From Truepera sp. (GTDB lineage Bacteria; Deinococcota; Deinococci; Deinococcales; Trueperaceae), in NCBI GenBank assembly GCA_032027045.1, contig JAVSMU010000001.1, forward strand, positions 1,244,646 to 1,308,645: 64,000 bases of DNA. Direction: 5' to 3'. Position numbers and translations under genes: made by a program. This document shows, one piece after another, positions 34,791-41,726 of the stretch. Position 1 is the first letter of the stretch; every line of letters starts with the position of its first letter. Under the pieces are notes generated by a model. The model saw nothing but the letters and a program-made list of their open reading frames with translations, was not told where the DNA came from and made no database searches.

Positions 34791-34839
34791 TTATGCGCCG
34801 CTCACCGCACGCGGGCGGTTGGGGTGCGACCATGGGGAC

Positions 34840-35457
34840 ATGATGAGATTGCCTGGCAAGTTCCTCACGCTGGCCCTGCTGATGGGCGCGCTCCTGGCTG
34901 CCTGCGCCCCGGCCCCCGCGCGAACGGGTACCGTGCTCGTCGCCATGATGAACGGCCCGGCGCAGTCCGTGCTGGCGGGCAGCGCCGATGGCGTGCAGCA
35001 CATATTGGAGCGCGACGTCTCCAACTTCACCTACGTCTCCGAGTTCACCATGCGCTTCCTGGAGACCCACAACGACCTGTTCCACAGTCGCGCGGCGCCG
35101 AGCGCCGCGCGCATCGCCCGCAGCCAAGGCGCGGACCTCGCCATCATGGTGGGGGCCCCGGTCCTCGAGCGCACCGTCACCCCGTCGCGAGACGGCGCAG
35201 CGCGACGGGTCGACGTGTCGCTGGCCCTGGAAGCGCAGGTAGTGGATCCCCGCACCGACGCGGTGGTGCAGGTCCTGAGAACGCGGACGTCGCAAGGCTC
35301 GCGCGTGGAGTCCAACGCCGAGCCGTTGGTTCCGGTGGGGTCGGACCCGACGGTGATCGCGCTCAGAGATCAGGCGATTCCAGAGCTGGCCGCCGCCCTG
35401 GAGGCCGAGCTACCGTACTTGGCCAGCAGCCTGCTCATCGGAAGTAACGGCGAATGA
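34840..35457 (+). CDS. Lipoprotein of unknown function
   Basis: 205 residues from the ATG at 34840. A lipoprotein signal peptide with lipobox LLAAC (Cys at about residue 22) is followed by APAPARTGTVLVAMMNGPAQSV. The mature part mixes alpha and beta (ARSQGADLAIMVGAPVLERTV, VDVSLALEAQVVDPRTDAVVQ). This layout resembles the FlgO/CsgG-like class of small outer-membrane or envelope lipoproteins, but I cannot assign it. Its 3' end overlaps the convergent 499-residue gene by 23 bases, so the two mRNAs are complementary at their ends. GGGGA lies just before the tandem ATGs. Confidence 0.65.
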   Translation: MMRLPGKFLTLALLMGALLAACAPAPARTGTVLVAMMNGPAQSVLAGSADGVQHILERDVSNFTYVSEFTMRFLETHNDLFHSRAAPSAARIARSQGADLAIMVGAPVLERTVTPSRDGAARRVDVSLALEAQVVDPRTDAVVQVLRTRTSQGSRVESNAEPLVPVGSDPTVIALRDQAIPELAAALEAELPYLASSLLIGSNGE

Positions 35458-36934
35458 TCTCCTGGTAGTCGGCCGGGAGATCGCCCTCGCCCAGGGCTTC
35501 CTCGACCGCCGTAGCGTAATGGCCCAGCTCGACGCCCTGCGGCAGTTGCACCTGATCGTCGCCCGGCAGGCGAACGTTGCCCGCCGGCGTGAGCGGCCCG
35601 TCCTGAATGACGCCGGGTAGGAGTTCCACCCCGCCGGCGAGCGCGCCCTCCGGCGCCGCGCCCGTGTCGGGCACCTCGGATCCGCCGGCGCCCGCGGCAC
35701 CCGCCAGATCGTCCCCCGCCCCACCGGGTTCGGTTCCGGCCTCGCCCCCGGCGCCCTCTTCGCCGGGCCGTTTGGTGTCGCCGCCGGCTACTACCTGACC
35801 GCCTTCGTCCAGTCGGGCGCCTTCATCGGCGCCTTCGGCACCGGCCCCCTCGGCTCCAGCACCACCACCCTGGCTGGACTCGTCGGCGCGCGTGCCACCC
35901 GCATCCTGGCCGGAATCGGCGTCCTGGCCGGCTTCCGCACCCTGCCTCGCGTCGGTCCCTTGGTTGGCCCGGTCGCCTTCGGCGCCCGCTTGTCTCGACC
36001 CAGGTGCCTGCTCGCTTCGCTGTTGAGTCTGGTCCGTCGCGGGCGGGACCTCGGACGCCTCAGGCGCCGGCTCTGCCCGGCTTGGGGCGGACCGGATATC
36101 ACCGGCGAGGCTGCCGTCGCCGGCGCCCTGCGGTCCACCGCTTCCGGCCTGCTCGCCGGAGCTCCTCCCGTCTGGGGGGCTCTGCCTCAGCGCCTCCAAG
36201 AACCTGGAGAGGGCTTCGTTCCCTGCGTCTGAACCGCCGGGCGGCAGGGCGTCCCGCGTCTCCGTGCCGCCTGCCGGCGCAACGGCGGTGCTCGGCGCGT
36301 CGGCGCGGCCGGCCGCCGGCAACGCCGGCGTGAGGTCGTCACCGAACTCGAGCGGCTCGGCTACCGCTTCTGCGGTATCGGTGGTGGCCGCAACGGGTGG
36401 CGGCCGGGTGGACTCCGAGAGACCGGGAACCATACGCGACAGCGCGACCACCGTGAGCGCCAGGGTCGCCACGGGCAGCCACCAAGGCGGCGTCGGTTCG
36501 GGTCGGTAGTCGCGGATGGATCGCCCGGCGCGCCGAATGAGCTGGGCTTCCAAGCCGTACTCGTCGACGCGATCACGGACGCCTGTTCCGGTGGCGCCTG
36601 GTGTGGGACCGTCACGGTGCGCTTGGACCCCCAAGGCCGTCTCGTACGCGAGCCCCGTAGTGGCGGCGATGTGCGACAGGGCCGGCCGCGTCTGGGGCCG
36701 GACGGGTAACAGCGCCCCGACCGCCGCCCCGACCACGAGCCCGGCAAGCTGCGCGAGCAGCGAGACCGGCATGAAGAAGCCCACGACTGCCCCCACCAGT
36801 GCGAGGCCCAGGGCGCCTACCGCGGCGCGCCTTAACCGCTTGTGTGTAGCCAACCGCCTGGCCGCGGTGAGGTGGAGGGTGAACTCCGCGCCCATGTTCG
36901 CCGCGCTTCGCCTGCGCTTGCTCGGGGAGATCAT
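35435..36934 (-). CDS. Membrane protein with long disordered region, MoxR-cluster type
   Basis: 499 residues from the ATG at 36934 (overlapping the previous stop, ATGA). N-terminal part: two adjacent membrane helices (about 38-56 and 59-75), a soluble segment with GLAYETALG and DEYGLEAQLIRRAGRSIRDY, and a third helix (about 150-166). The remaining 320 residues are Gly/Ala/Asp/Glu-rich low complexity with many GAEGAGAEGAD-like near-repeats. The end is again ordered: GHYATAVEEALGEGDLPADYQEIIRRYFR region. That last piece resembles the C-terminal LPxxYQxxVRxYF motif of proteins found in MoxR-DUF58 operons. The function is unknown. Confidence 0.65.
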   Translation of the reverse strand: MISPSKRRRSAANMGAEFTLHLTAARRLATHKRLRRAAVGALGLALVGAVVGFFMPVSLLAQLAGLVVGAAVGALLPVRPQTRPALSHIAATTGLAYETALGVQAHRDGPTPGATGTGVRDRVDEYGLEAQLIRRAGRSIRDYRPEPTPPWWLPVATLALTVVALSRMVPGLSESTRPPPVAATTDTAEAVAEPLEFGDDLTPALPAAGRADAPSTAVAPAGGTETRDALPPGGSDAGNEALSRFLEALRQSPPDGRSSGEQAGSGGPQGAGDGSLAGDIRSAPSRAEPAPEASEVPPATDQTQQRSEQAPGSRQAGAEGDRANQGTDARQGAEAGQDADSGQDAGGTRADESSQGGGAGAEGAGAEGADEGARLDEGGQVVAGGDTKRPGEEGAGGEAGTEPGGAGDDLAGAAGAGGSEVPDTGAAPEGALAGGVELLPGVIQDGPLTPAGNVRLPGDDQVQLPQGVELGHYATAVEEALGEGDLPADYQEIIRRYFR

Positions 36935-37626
36935 GCGGTCCTCTTCCGGCGCGCCAACGGGGGTATACGAGGCCCGGTGGCGGGGCGAGTACGGATCAGG
37001 GTGACGACGGAGAGGCCCAGCATGCAGACCAGGTAGGCGGGAGCAACGGTGAGCGGTCCCGCCCACGGGTTGGCGATGACGGTGTGCAGGGCGAAATCGA
37101 GCCAGATGGTGCCGGCGAGGGTGGCGGGCACGCACACTAGCAGCAACACGCCCGAGAATGGCCCTCTCAGGAACCGGCCCATGAGGAGGCCCAGTCCGAA
37201 GTACCCCGTCACGGTGACGGGCGCCACGATGGCCGGCCAGTAGCCCGGAGTGGCGGGGAAGCTCCCCGCCTGCGCCGCCAGCTCGAAGGGCCAGCTCAGC
37301 AGCGTGATCACGAGCAGCGCGAACCAGGTGACCCGCGTGCCCTCGCGTGCTTCGTGGAAGCTTGGCTGCGTCGCGTCCTCGCCGCCGGACTGGGCGTCCA
37401 CCGATCGGGTGGGAAGAGCCGCGTGATAGGCGCCGAACGCGAGGCCCAAAAGGGCCAGCACGCTGTTGCGTAGTGGCGCCACCACCAGCCAAGACTCGTT
37501 CACGCGGGCCCCGGAGCCGGGCCAGTTGGCGTTCAGAGCCACGACGAGCACGACGAGGAACAGGCCCCCGATCTGGAGGAGGTCGGGACGCTGCAGGCGC
37601 GCCGACACGAGCGCCACCTGCCTCAT
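36931..37626 (-). CDS. Polytopic membrane protein of unknown function
   Basis: 231 residues from the ATG at 37626 (ATGA overlap with the preceding gene). About six hydrophobic helices (about 15-32, 46-65, 93-112, 130-150, 155-178, 185-207) and a basic C-terminal RRKRTA tail. No conserved catalytic pattern is visible. It is translationally coupled on both sides, so it almost certainly works with the 530- and 499-residue products. A frame extension above 37626 is a shadow of the neighbour. Confidence 0.65.
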   Translation of the reverse strand: MRQVALVSARLQRPDLLQIGGLFLVVLVVALNANWPGSGARVNESWLVVAPLRNSVLALLGLAFGAYHAALPTRSVDAQSGGEDATQPSFHEAREGTRVTWFALLVITLLSWPFELAAQAGSFPATPGYWPAIVAPVTVTGYFGLGLLMGRFLRGPFSGVLLLVCVPATLAGTIWLDFALHTVIANPWAGPLTVAPAYLVCMLGLSVVTLIRTRPATGPRIPPLARRKRTA

Positions 37627-39215
37627 CGCGCTGCCTCCGCGAGTCCGGCGACCGGCATGGGGCCGCGGGCAGCCGGCGGGGCGTGTCTGCCGGATGCGAC
37701 CGGGATGGCTCCGCCGGCTGCAGCCGGGTTGGAGCCCGCCGTGGCCCCCGTGTCTGCTAGCCACAAGACGCAGGCGCCTTCGTCCTCACAGCCGCTCTGG
37801 GCCACCAGGGTTCCGTCCGGTAGGAGAGGCACGAGCGAGTCGTAACGGGCCGGGAACGCACCAAGCTCGCCCTCTTCGAGCCTGACGGTGCCGCCCGGCG
37901 CCAAGTCGCTTTGAGCCCCGAGACCGGTTACGTAGAGGTTGGTAAGGGGGAGGCGTGAAGCGTTCCCGATAGTCAGCCCATCTATGTGGATGGGCGCGCT
38001 GACGGCGCGTGGCGGAAGCAGCATGGTAACGGAGCGCCAGGCGGCTGTCGGCACGTGCACGCCGCCGTCGTCGGCGAAGTACGCCTGGGGCCTGGCAGGG
38101 GCGGCTCCGGCCTCGAAATCGAGCACCACGGGTGGCAAAGTGACGCTCTCTCGTGCCTCATGCAGTAACGCAAGCTGCCCCCCGATCACCCCCACCGCCA
38201 CAGAGCTCTCATAGGGCGGAACCGGGGGCCTGAGCGCCCGCCAGCCCCCGAGGCCGACCAGAACGGCCACGAGCAAGGCGGAGATGAGCCCCGGCCCACC
38301 GCCGAAGCGCAGCAGGACGAGGACCAGCAAGGCGTAGGTGGCCGAAGCGATGAGCACGCTGCCCACGGACACCGACTTCGGATAGACCACGAGCGGTTCG
38401 GCGAGTGCCGCCAGGAGGAGTTCCCGGGGCCTGAGAGCAGCGAGGTCGGCCGCCTGGGGAGGCATTCGATCGTCCCCTCGCGTGAGGGACAGGGTACCGG
38501 CCCCCAGTCTCGAGGCGGTCGCGTCCCCCAGCAGCGTCTCCAGGCTGGGGGAGAGGTCGACGGCCCCGCCGACGAACACCACCCTCGCCCCGGCGACCGC
38601 GGCGGCCACCAGTGCGTCCAGCGGGGGCGCTGCGTGATCGACGAGGAGAGCGCTCACGCCGTCGTAGCCCGCCGGGGTGACGGGCAGGTCGGACGGGCGC
38701 ACGCTCACGAAGCGCGCCCCCGGCACGGCAGCACGCAGCTCGCCTGCGGCCGCGGGAGCCCGGGGGTCCGCGAGCCCCAGGACGAGTTCGCGCGGGTCGG
38801 ATTCGCGGCTGGAGAGGCTACCGCTCGCCAGGACGCGGTCGGCGGTAGCCACCCGCCAGGCGAGGCTACGGAACGGCGGCACGAACAGGTCCGTCTCGTA
38901 GGTGAACACGCCGCCCCCGCCGCGGAGCTCATGGGTGATGTTCACGGGGATCTCACCCTCACGCAGCGTGCCGACGTCTAGCGCAAGGGTCAGGGTGCTG
39001 GGCGGGAGGTCACGGGTCTCTACCCTCAGATGGTTCCACGCGCCGGCCACGACCTGGTTGGCGACGCCGAGGGTGAAAGTCGCCGAGGCGTCCGCCGCCC
39101 TGGCCGCCTGGGCGAGGCATAGCCCGACCAGCAGTGCAGCCAGCGGCAAGCGGCTGAGCTTGGCCAAGAAGCGTCTGGGCCGGCCTTCACTTGCTTTGAC
39201 GAGGGACGCGGTCAT
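37623..39215 (-). CDS. Exported two-domain membrane protein (GAT-like domain), MoxR-cluster type
   Basis: 530 residues. Signal peptide (about 15-40, cleavage near ARA-AD) and a beta-sandwich (about 42-130). A Rossmann/amidotransferase-like domain (about 137-275) has GYDGVSALLVDHAAPPLDAL and AVAGARVVFVGGAVD, with no catalytic Cys. Two membrane helices (about 285-305, 309-326) and a C-terminal beta-rich domain follow (about 335-500). Proteins with this order accompany MoxR-DUF58 or DUF4350 clusters, but no moxR is in the window. ATG start at 39215; TATACT lies 11 bases upstream, so a very short leader is possible. First of three coupled genes. Confidence 0.65.
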   Translation of the reverse strand: MTASLVKASEGRPRRFLAKLSRLPLAALLVGLCLAQAARAADASATFTLGVANQVVAGAWNHLRVETRDLPPSTLTLALDVGTLREGEIPVNITHELRGGGGVFTYETDLFVPPFRSLAWRVATADRVLASGSLSSRESDPRELVLGLADPRAPAAAGELRAAVPGARFVSVRPSDLPVTPAGYDGVSALLVDHAAPPLDALVAAAVAGARVVFVGGAVDLSPSLETLLGDATASRLGAGTLSLTRGDDRMPPQAADLAALRPRELLLAALAEPLVVYPKSVSVGSVLIASATYALLVLVLLRFGGGPGLISALLVAVLVGLGGWRALRPPVPPYESSVAVGVIGGQLALLHEARESVTLPPVVLDFEAGAAPARPQAYFADDGGVHVPTAAWRSVTMLLPPRAVSAPIHIDGLTIGNASRLPLTNLYVTGLGAQSDLAPGGTVRLEEGELGAFPARYDSLVPLLPDGTLVAQSGCEDEGACVLWLADTGATAGSNPAAAGGAIPVASGRHAPPAARGPMPVAGLAEAAR

Positions 39216-39295: not shown

Positions 39296-40912
39296 TCAGC
39301 GGCCCGCCAAGGCTCCGAGAAAAACGACCGCGCTGACGACCTTGCGCTCGCTGGTTCTGTTCATCACCTTGCCGTCCACTACCAGAGTGGTGCTGCTACC
39401 ACTATCGAAGCGCATCGCCCGGTCCACCCCCAGGCTCAAGAAGAGCTGCACGAGGTCCGCCGCACGCATGGTCTCGCCGACCAGGAGCAGCGTGGTGCCG
39501 TCGGGCTTGACGCCGACGGCCGCCTGCTGCGTGAGCCCATCCAGGATCCGCTCACCGGTCTGGAAGCCTTCCTTGGCAGGGTCGTACGCCGCAACGCCAT
39601 CTTGCACCAGGAGCGGCCCGGCCTCGACGGCGTACGGGGCCGTCTCGAACCCGGGCGGCCTCAGGTCCGTATCGAGCGCCACCGAGTCGCCGGGGTTCAG
39701 CAGGGCGAGGTCCCGGTCGCTGGCCGGATAGGCAAGCGCGAAGCCGTCATCCGGCACCAGCCGCGGCCCGATCTTGTTCTCGATCACGACGCCGTTCTGG
39801 ACGACGAGGACGCCTTGCGACGGGGTCCCCGCCAGCGTGCCCGGCGTCCTGGAAACCGCAACACCTCCCGAGTTGGCAGTGCCCACGTGTAGGGTGCCGC
39901 GGGAGGTATAGAGCAAGACGTCCGCGTCGAGGCGGTCTATGAGTGGAGCACCGGTGGGGGAGAAGGCCACGCTGGCGCGGCCGCGGCTCGGCAACGAGAG
40001 GAGCCCGTAGTCCACCTTCAGGAGACCGATGGCTGCGTAGCTCCGGGTGTCGAAGTAGCCGGCGTTTAGCGCGATCAGCGCGCCGTTACCGAGCTCCGAG
40101 ACGGTCCTTGGGACCCGGCTCTCGCCCACGACGCGGAACTCGCCGGAGCCGGGCGCGATGCTCACCAAGTGCACGACGCTAGGACCACTGGCCGTCGTCA
40201 CGTGGTACTTGCGGTAGGTGACGCCGGGGGCGATCTCACGCTCGACCTGCACCAGCTGGCTCAGGTCTCGCCGTGGTGTCACGTCGATCACCAACCGCGT
40301 CGGATTCTCGAGGGGGAAGACGGCGTAATCGAACGCCGGTCCGGAAAGGCGCAGTTGTACCTCGGCCTTGGAAGCCGTGAGTTCGAGTTCGAGGCCCGAA
40401 ACGTCCTCGGGCGCCGTTACCGGAACGAGCATCGGTGGCAAGTGGAGCACCAGCGGCGAGCCGGCGCTTCTCGAGCCACCCGTTCTCAGGCCGGCGAGGA
40501 ACGCGGGGCTCACCTGGGGCATGTCGAGCACTATGCGCACCTCTACGCTGCCCGAGTAACGGATGGCCTCTAGGCGCGGCTCCCTGATCTCGAGCGCGTC
40601 GAGCACGCTGGCGTTCAACAGCACCTCTCCGCCAAGCAGCACGGGCGGGTCCGCGTCCATGTTCGAGAGCCAGCCGAGCCCGGCGACGTAGGTCTCGTGA
40701 TAGGGACCGTGAACTACCGTGATGGCGTCATCGGCAACCCTCACCGCGACGTCGGGAACCCTGTAGTAGGTACCAGGAGGGGTCTCGCCACGTGCGACGA
40801 CGAGAGGAAGGGCGAGCACCCCTACGAGTAACGACAGGGTGAGGTTGCGGCGCGTGAACATCGCTGCGAGTCTCGCAAGCCCAACTGCGGTTTTGATGAG
40901 CGTGCGCAACAT
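39296..40912 (-). CDS. Exported phosphodiester glycosidase (NAGPA) family protein
   Basis: 538 residues. An N-terminal hydrophobic segment after MFTRRN suggests that the functional start may be the internal ATG at 40861, which begins a typical signal peptide. A first half (about 50-235) of beta-rich AMIN-like sequence is followed by a NAGPA/DUF2233 domain (about 245-538): LIALNAGYFDTRSY, AVGVKPDGTTLLLVGETMRA, DLVQLFLSLG, AMRFDSGSSTTLVVDG. The family includes the human GlcNAc-1-phosphodiester glycosidase and bacterial proteins near cell-wall genes; the likely substrate is a sugar phosphodiester of the envelope. It follows the AroE-like gene by 34 bases. Confidence 0.82.
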   Translation of the reverse strand: MLRTLIKTAVGLARLAAMFTRRNLTLSLLVGVLALPLVVARGETPPGTYYRVPDVAVRVADDAITVVHGPYHETYVAGLGWLSNMDADPPVLLGGEVLLNASVLDALEIREPRLEAIRYSGSVEVRIVLDMPQVSPAFLAGLRTGGSRSAGSPLVLHLPPMLVPVTAPEDVSGLELELTASKAEVQLRLSGPAFDYAVFPLENPTRLVIDVTPRRDLSQLVQVEREIAPGVTYRKYHVTTASGPSVVHLVSIAPGSGEFRVVGESRVPRTVSELGNGALIALNAGYFDTRSYAAIGLLKVDYGLLSLPSRGRASVAFSPTGAPLIDRLDADVLLYTSRGTLHVGTANSGGVAVSRTPGTLAGTPSQGVLVVQNGVVIENKIGPRLVPDDGFALAYPASDRDLALLNPGDSVALDTDLRPPGFETAPYAVEAGPLLVQDGVAAYDPAKEGFQTGERILDGLTQQAAVGVKPDGTTLLLVGETMRAADLVQLFLSLGVDRAMRFDSGSSTTLVVDGKVMNRTSERKVVSAVVFLGALAGR

Positions 40913-40946: not shown

Positions 40947-41726
40947 TCAGAGGCGATGGAACATCGTCAGGATGGGCTCCAGGCCTACGGAACCACCCAG
41001 GATCTGGCTGAGGGCGAGCTCGAAGCGGTAGGCCTCGACGTCGCGCCGGTTGAACGTGAGCGCGCCGAGCGCCAGCGCGCGGCTACGCAGCTCCGAGACG
41101 CCGCCGTCGGCCAGGTCGATGACGGTGAGGTGTGGGCCGAGGAGTTCGTCGTCCACGCTTGTGGCGGGGTCGAGCCTTACGACCAGGTCCGCTCGCTCGA
41201 GCAGCGTGCGCCCCAATGGGTCACTCACCGAGCGGGCGTAGAACGTGGCGCCGGCGGCGCTGGGCCTGGCGCGCTCGGCGGTCACGCGGTCCGCAGCCAG
41301 GACCGACAACGAGGCCACCCCGAGGCGCGTGAGTTCGCGGCCCACGGCGCGCGCCTCGGGCGAGGCCCCGAGCACCACGGCGTGCGCCCCGTCGGCATGC
41401 CAGCGGCGCTCGCTGAGCATGGTGCTCAGCGCCCGCCCGAAGGTGTGATCGGCCATGATGCCCGCTTGCGTGACGGTGAGCGTGTCGGCCACGCCGAGCT
41501 CCTCGGCGTCGAGCGAGGAGCGCGACGCGAGGGCCTTGGCCTCCGCCTGGTGGGAGTCGTCGAGGACGATGGCCCCGGCGAAGTCCAGGCGCGGGAGGGC
41601 CCGCATCAGCTCGCTTACGGAGCCGTCGGGAACGGGGTGGAGAAGGAAGCGGCCGGACTCGTCGTGGAAGTCACGAAGCGCGTGTTTGAGGTTGGCGTCT
41701 TCGGTGACGAGGGCCACGAGATGCAT
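40947..41726 (-). CDS. Shikimate dehydrogenase-like protein, degenerate
   Basis: 259 residues with the two-domain layout of AroE: an N-terminal part, then a Rossmann domain with VVLGASPEARAVGRELTRLG (about 117-136) in place of VLGAGGAARAV, and TFGRALSTM and SVSDPLG where AroE has related segments. The shikimate-binding residues (the SxS near the N terminus, the catalytic Lys in NVTxPxK and the Asp of NTD) are not evident. It probably binds a nucleotide but is unlikely to reduce 3-dehydroshikimate. The ATG lies 7 bases after TAAGCT. Divergent from thrS. Confidence 0.55.
   Translation of the reverse strand: MHLVALVTEDANLKHALRDFHDESGRFLLHPVPDGSVSELMRALPRLDFAGAIVLDDSHQAEAKALASRSSLDAEELGVADTLTVTQAGIMADHTFGRALSTMLSERRWHADGAHAVVLGASPEARAVGRELTRLGVASLSVLAADRVTAERARPSAAGATFYARSVSDPLGRTLLERADLVVRLDPATSVDDELLGPHLTVIDLADGGVSELRSRALALGALTFNRRDVEAYRFELALSQILGGSVGLEPILTMFHRL

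Follow-up and report, generated by a model that had tools for sequence, protein, structure and literature searches.

The question raised by this locus is why three coupled envelope genes, here termed A, B and C, which resemble parts of MoxR-DUF58 operons, are found in a setting devoid of moxR. Within the window, i.e. the whole analysed stretch of 64,000 nucleotides, no match to MoxR, DUF58, BatA or VWA_2 was obtained, in agreement with the first-pass annotation, which had reported moxR, DUF58 and vWA genes as missing and had correctly placed the coupled genes at 35435-39215. They lie on the minus strand (Table 1), and four bases are shared at each of the A/B and B/C junctions. As the same overlap (-4) is kept between A and B in 23/26 and between B and C in 20/25 homologous loci, it is not a product of chance. 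A search with the A profile detected A in 35 of the 39 Trueperaceae genomes and in all four genomes of the sister family (f5); the remaining Deinococcota genomes searched gave no match (39 positive genomes out of 111 in total). A, B and C match no Pfam or NCBIfam family, PDB sequence searches with the A and C profiles gave no match, and no paper on the gene set was found in the openly available literature. At the locus, no match to a sigma-70 promoter was recognized, and terminator matches stayed near chance level.

Table 1. Features in and around the A-B-C locus (positions in the window).
Feature	Position	Strand	Size or setting	Evidence
Gene A	37623..39215	minus	530 aa	ORF, family alignment, AlphaFold2 model
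Gene B	36931..37626	minus	231 aa	AlphaFold2 model, fold searches, loop comparison, profile match
Gene C	35435..36934	minus	499 aa	alignment, hydropathy/charge, tail and N-terminal homology
Conserved C-terminal tail of C (...EEALGEGDLPADYQEIIRRYFR)	35438..35500	minus		alignment; same tail in MoxR-operon C proteins
NAGPA-like gene	39296..40912	minus	upstream of A, 80-base gap	Pfam PF09992 E=9e-22; synteny
AroE-like gene	40947..41726	minus	first in conserved block	remote shikimate dehydrogenase match; synteny
Lipoprotein-like ORF	34819..35457	plus	convergent with C	

Trueperaceae loci whose flanks are intact almost all have the gene order ThrS / AroE-like, NAGPA, A, B, C / lipoprotein-like, YigZ / CysS. 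The two upstream neighbours named earlier, an NAGPA-type phosphodiester glycosidase and a remote AroE relative, are both real. The glycosidase gene precedes A in these loci except in L054, where NAGPA is missing and A directly follows the AroE-like gene. The AroE-like protein is kept in the family, falls well short of the curated shikimate dehydrogenase thresholds and probably serves another function. The lipoprotein-like ORF is found in most Trueperaceae loci and matches no family. Since the sister family has kept A-B-C in other surroundings, the trio itself constitutes the conserved unit, and the NAGPA/AroE-like neighbourhood is a trait of the Trueperaceae and not of the module. Four Trueperaceae genomes lack A, one of which (G030) is explained by contig ends. 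In genus g7 (G028 and, within the limits set by their contig ends, G011 and G023) a diverged C-like gene is located directly after NAGPA; A and B appear to have been lost there, with the diverged C remaining (L245, L246 and L247 for G028, G023 and G011, respectively). A function deduced from the NAGPA and AroE-like neighbours was ranked lower, given that the sister family lives without them and that the pair persists after the loss of A and B.

The relationship to MoxR operons became accessible via the A profile across phyla; hmmsearch with the first A, B and C profiles around the DUF58 loci of relatives revealed no convincing homologue. Applied to 390 genomes, the A profile produced three weak matches in other phyla, with E-values of 4e-5 to 1e-3. 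Each of the three genes opens a run of A, B, C and MoxR on one strand, accompanied by DUF58 in two cases and BatA in one. In one of these runs (L166) the A/B and B/C junctions, read from the sequence, are again 4-base overlaps. In the reverse direction, a profile of the three distant A proteins recovered the Trueperaceae A proteins (best E=3e-11) and extended the set to further phyla. Altogether, an A homologue upstream of MoxR on the same strand was found at 15 loci (14 distinct contigs, some of them near-copies), 12 of which have the profile-confirmed order A, B, C, MoxR; A hits without MoxR (e.g. L200, L205, L206 and L210) were not taken as operons. In several phyla the trio thus precedes moxR directly, which is usually part of moxR-DUF58-BatA. 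Among the loci are a Spirochaetales MAG (L259), in which the set is complete as far as DUF58 and a BatA-like gene, the latter assigned by reading its sequence, and a Nitrospinota MAG (L260, on the same contig as L167). Comparison of the Trueperaceae alignments with those of 7-8 distant operon proteins by hhalign yielded E=1.9e-16 over 412 columns for A, E=1.9e-7 over 132 columns for B, and E=1.6e-11 for the tail and E=4.2e-6 for the N-terminal part of C, against 0.021 to 0.94 for column-reversed, column-shuffled and cross-family controls. For B, the value was non-significant with only three distant proteins (E=0.045) and became significant with seven proteins and the controls. The suggested resemblance to MoxR-DUF58 operons is accordingly borne out: the trio is conserved jointly, and A, B and C are each homologous to genes of A-B-C-MoxR-DUF58-BatA operons, where unrelated structures or a scattered trio would have spoken against it.

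The AlphaFold2 model of B (mean pLDDT 91.4) depicts a six-helix membrane protein. All 50 matches listed by VIA-align are membrane domains of ABC transporters or the Mce1 permease, with Z-scores among these matches of 8.4-13.7 over 175-217 residues; the partners comprise ABCG, ABCA, ABCH, NosY, PmtCD, KpsM, Wzm, TarG and, in last place, Mce1. Foldseek placed the same proteins on top with probabilities of 0.98-1.00 for the top six, at E-values of only 0.01-0.3. On the basis of the model, B is predicted to have the ABC-2/type V exporter permease fold over nearly its full length; no curated ABC-2 family in Pfam is matched. The loop between helices 2 and 3 has a median length of 8 residues in 25 B proteins of Trueperaceae and the sister family and comprises 26-31 residues in 7 distant operon B proteins, several of which carry an E-K/R-x-x-x-DL pattern in this loop that we take to be typical for the coupling segment of ABC-2 permeases. 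No coupling segment is recognizable between helices 2 and 3 of the Trueperaceae and sister-family proteins: in 22/25 sequences a coupling helix would not fit into so short a loop, and the motif is missing from the other three, whose loops are long. No ABC ATPase gene is present in the A-B-C locus of the window. The novel aspects of the present analysis are the predicted ABC-2 fold of B and the apparent shrinkage of its cytoplasmic loop from ca. 27 to 8 residues in the Trueperaceae.

A link to ABC transporters is also visible in the gene order. At two loci (L140 and L209) a gene for an ABC ATPase, identified by Pfam ABC_tran (E=1.4e-30) in L140 and by sequence reading in L209, is inserted between A and B, with C, MoxR, DUF58 and a BatA-like gene nearby; B of L140 matches ABC2_membrane_3. 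The ATPase gene is missing from most other A-B-C-MoxR operons. A series emerges from A-ABC ATPase-B-C-MoxR-DUF58 via the same arrangement minus the ATPase to the Trueperaceae, where the loop of B is gone too, and in this direction, which we infer, it would read as a stepwise loss of an ABC motor.

Protein A is composed of an N-terminal hydrophobic helix, a β-sandwich (~43-140), a Rossmann-like domain (~142-257), a transmembrane hairpin (~284-327) and a C-terminal β domain (~335-490); the mean pLDDT of its AlphaFold2 model is 83.9. No cysteine column is conserved in the Rossmann domain across the A alignment, which renders glutamine amidotransferase activity, and hence a role of A as an active amidotransferase, unlikely. 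For GATase1-like, DUF4350 and DUF7408 families, no curated match was obtained with A of the window and sub-threshold matches were obtained with distant A proteins. Foldseek returned no E-value below 0.001 for the A model, and the VIA-align rows mostly cover the β-sandwich (Z about 7-8), such that they may reflect just a common arrangement. In two loci of other phyla (L207 and L212), A-like proteins found with the profile of operon A proteins are encoded directly beside ABC ATPase genes, with no MoxR detected there, which suggests that A-like proteins serve ABC exporters as accessory components. Protein C consists of a basic N-terminus, 2-3 transmembrane helices, ca. 300 acidic residues rich in G/A/P/E/D and a conserved C-terminal tail with the consensus TEGxxPxEYQEIIRNYFR. 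This motif, already pointed out in the first-pass annotation, is conserved to the final residue in the family alignment and recurs in MoxR-operon C proteins of other phyla. The basic segments of C look cytoplasmic in a hydropathy and charge analysis, and the positive-inside rule points to a probable extracytoplasmic location of the tail.

The partners expected from the operons are encoded elsewhere in the genome; the window itself spans 1244646-1308645 of one contig of 2.92 Mb. A search for moxR-DUF58 outside the window was answered positively at 2.20 Mb, where the only strong MoxR match (2200750-2201148) adjoins the sole DUF58 (2199604-2200200). The single BatA-vWA protein is encoded at ~0.499 Mb (0.50 Mb) and is 31.5% identical to the operon BatA of L166 over 463 aligned positions (E=3e-20). 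Directly downstream of moxR-DUF58, a 732-aa protein with a C-terminal branched-chain-type permease domain is encoded (L006 5205-7400, ~2.197-2.199 Mb). In none of the Trueperaceae or sister-family loci examined is moxR or DUF58 located beside A-B-C; the trio stands alone. Whole-genome co-occurrence with DUF58 provided no discrimination because DUF58 is nearly universal. In a quick tree of 60 MoxR proteins, in which the branches that matter here have SH-aLRT values of 92-99 and some forks stay open, the Trueperaceae MoxRs and the second MoxRs of other Deinococcota form a supported set (99), which nests with operon-type and PQQ-type MoxRs (95) and apart from the canonical Deinococcota MoxRs (99). 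The MoxR of the window's genome accordingly branches with operon-type MoxRs. The MoxR of G011 (genus g7) sits on a long branch (0.94). Deinococcota families f3 and f4 hold MoxRs of the same clade with A not detected, and MoxR must therefore be able to work without A-B-C.

Based on these data, A-B-C probably represents the membrane and extracytoplasmic half of a MoxR-DUF58-BatA system which derives from an ABC exporter and has become dispersed in this lineage. In the scenario we propose, an ancestral ABC exporter composed of A, an ABC ATPase and B would have joined C and the MoxR-DUF58 chaperone pair. The ATPase gene would have been lost first and, in the Trueperaceae, the ATPase-facing loop of B as well. 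In the Deinococcota lineage the operon would have fallen apart into pieces that might still cooperate in trans. A-B-C would then more likely form an ATPase-free envelope complex, with the domains of A and the tail of C located outside, that is assembled or remodelled by MoxR-DUF58 at its cytoplasmic face, than an active ABC transporter. Such a process might be analogous to the maturation of the membrane enzyme nitric oxide reductase by the MoxR protein NorQ together with the vWA protein NorD, as described in PMC9976466 and PMC13036017. Several findings speak against this scenario: A-B-C and MoxR are joined in none of the Trueperaceae or sister-family loci examined, MoxRs of the same clade occur in families f3 and f4, in which A was not detected, A and B appear to have been lost in one sublineage, and B is linked by sequence only once more distant proteins are included.

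The main rival holds that A-B-C originates from MoxR operons yet acts independently of MoxR after recruitment, in the Trueperaceae, into an envelope-carbohydrate unit with NAGPA and the AroE-like protein. The one-strand block AroE-like-NAGPA-A-B-C with its small gaps in nearly all intact-flank Trueperaceae loci and the persistence of MoxR relatives in families without A are in its favour; but the sister family's trio lacks these neighbours, A in L054 follows the AroE-like gene with no NAGPA between them, and NAGPA and the AroE-like gene remain where A and B are lost, so that we regard this explanation as rather unlikely. The other alternatives concern the fate of the motor. That an ABC exporter has changed its power source, with the permease fold kept and the MoxR AAA+ ATPase and DUF58 driving or gating the membrane complex after loss of the ABC ATPase and its docking loop, seems improbable. 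Even less credence is given to B as a transporter subunit borrowing an ABC ATPase encoded elsewhere. Its ABC-2 fold, the ATPase gene that separates A from B in L140 and L209 and the coupling-like segment kept in several other operon B proteins would fit this idea, against which stand the locus without an ABC ATPase, the insufficient loop length in 22/25 sequences and the motif-free long loops of the other three. A convergent or coincidental likeness to MoxR operons, finally, might be considered in view of the low sequence similarity (20-30%) and the lack of Pfam or NCBIfam coverage for A, B and C; it is extremely improbable, as all three weak cross-phylum matches of the A profile hit the leading gene of A-B-C-MoxR operons, the distant-A profile recovered the Trueperaceae A, and the hhalign controls were negative.

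MoxR-DUF58 operons occur widely and, to our knowledge, few of their membrane substrates have been identified. With the preferred assignment to a dispersed MoxR-DUF58-BatA system, A, B and C become candidate membrane partners outside any Pfam or NCBIfam family, and the gene-order series, which ties them to an ABC exporter minus its ATPase, offers a concrete client hypothesis for MoxR-DUF58. As the system is naturally scattered, its parts are separately deletable. The most interesting element is the predicted ABC-2 fold that has neither an ATPase nor the loop. B shares this fold over almost its whole length with ABC-2/type V permeases such as NosY, PmtCD and ABCG and differs from them by the lack of an ATPase at the locus, of the coupling segment and of a Pfam ABC2 match. 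The A-like proteins of L207 and L212 resemble A in matching the operon-A profile and adjoin an ABC ATPase, but MoxR is not detected in their loci. At two further loci of some Trueperaceae (L134 and L164 in G007 and G010), a PQQ-dehydrogenase-like gene, so labelled from a reading of its sequence, stands in a run with genes for a protein that may bind solutes, as judged from a weak match, for a helical membrane protein ending in a PxxYRE..RYF tail, and for MoxR, DUF58 and a ~1470-aa BatA/vWA protein. These PQQ-linked operons share with the present system a PxxYREEL/VVSRYF-tailed protein beside moxR-DUF58 and BatA/vWA, but no A or B was found in them and their MoxRs constitute a separate clade. 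The classical Bacteroides aerotolerance (Bat) operon is composed of DUF58, VWA and TPR, with A-, B- and C-like genes not described there (PMC11834572), and differs in that moxR, DUF58 and vWA are not all encoded together in the genome of the window. The closest correspondence is to the MoxR-DUF58-BatA/vWA operons: the genome of the window has the three parts at three loci, but homologues of A, B and C lie directly upstream of such operons in several phyla, and the partners are all encoded in this genome.
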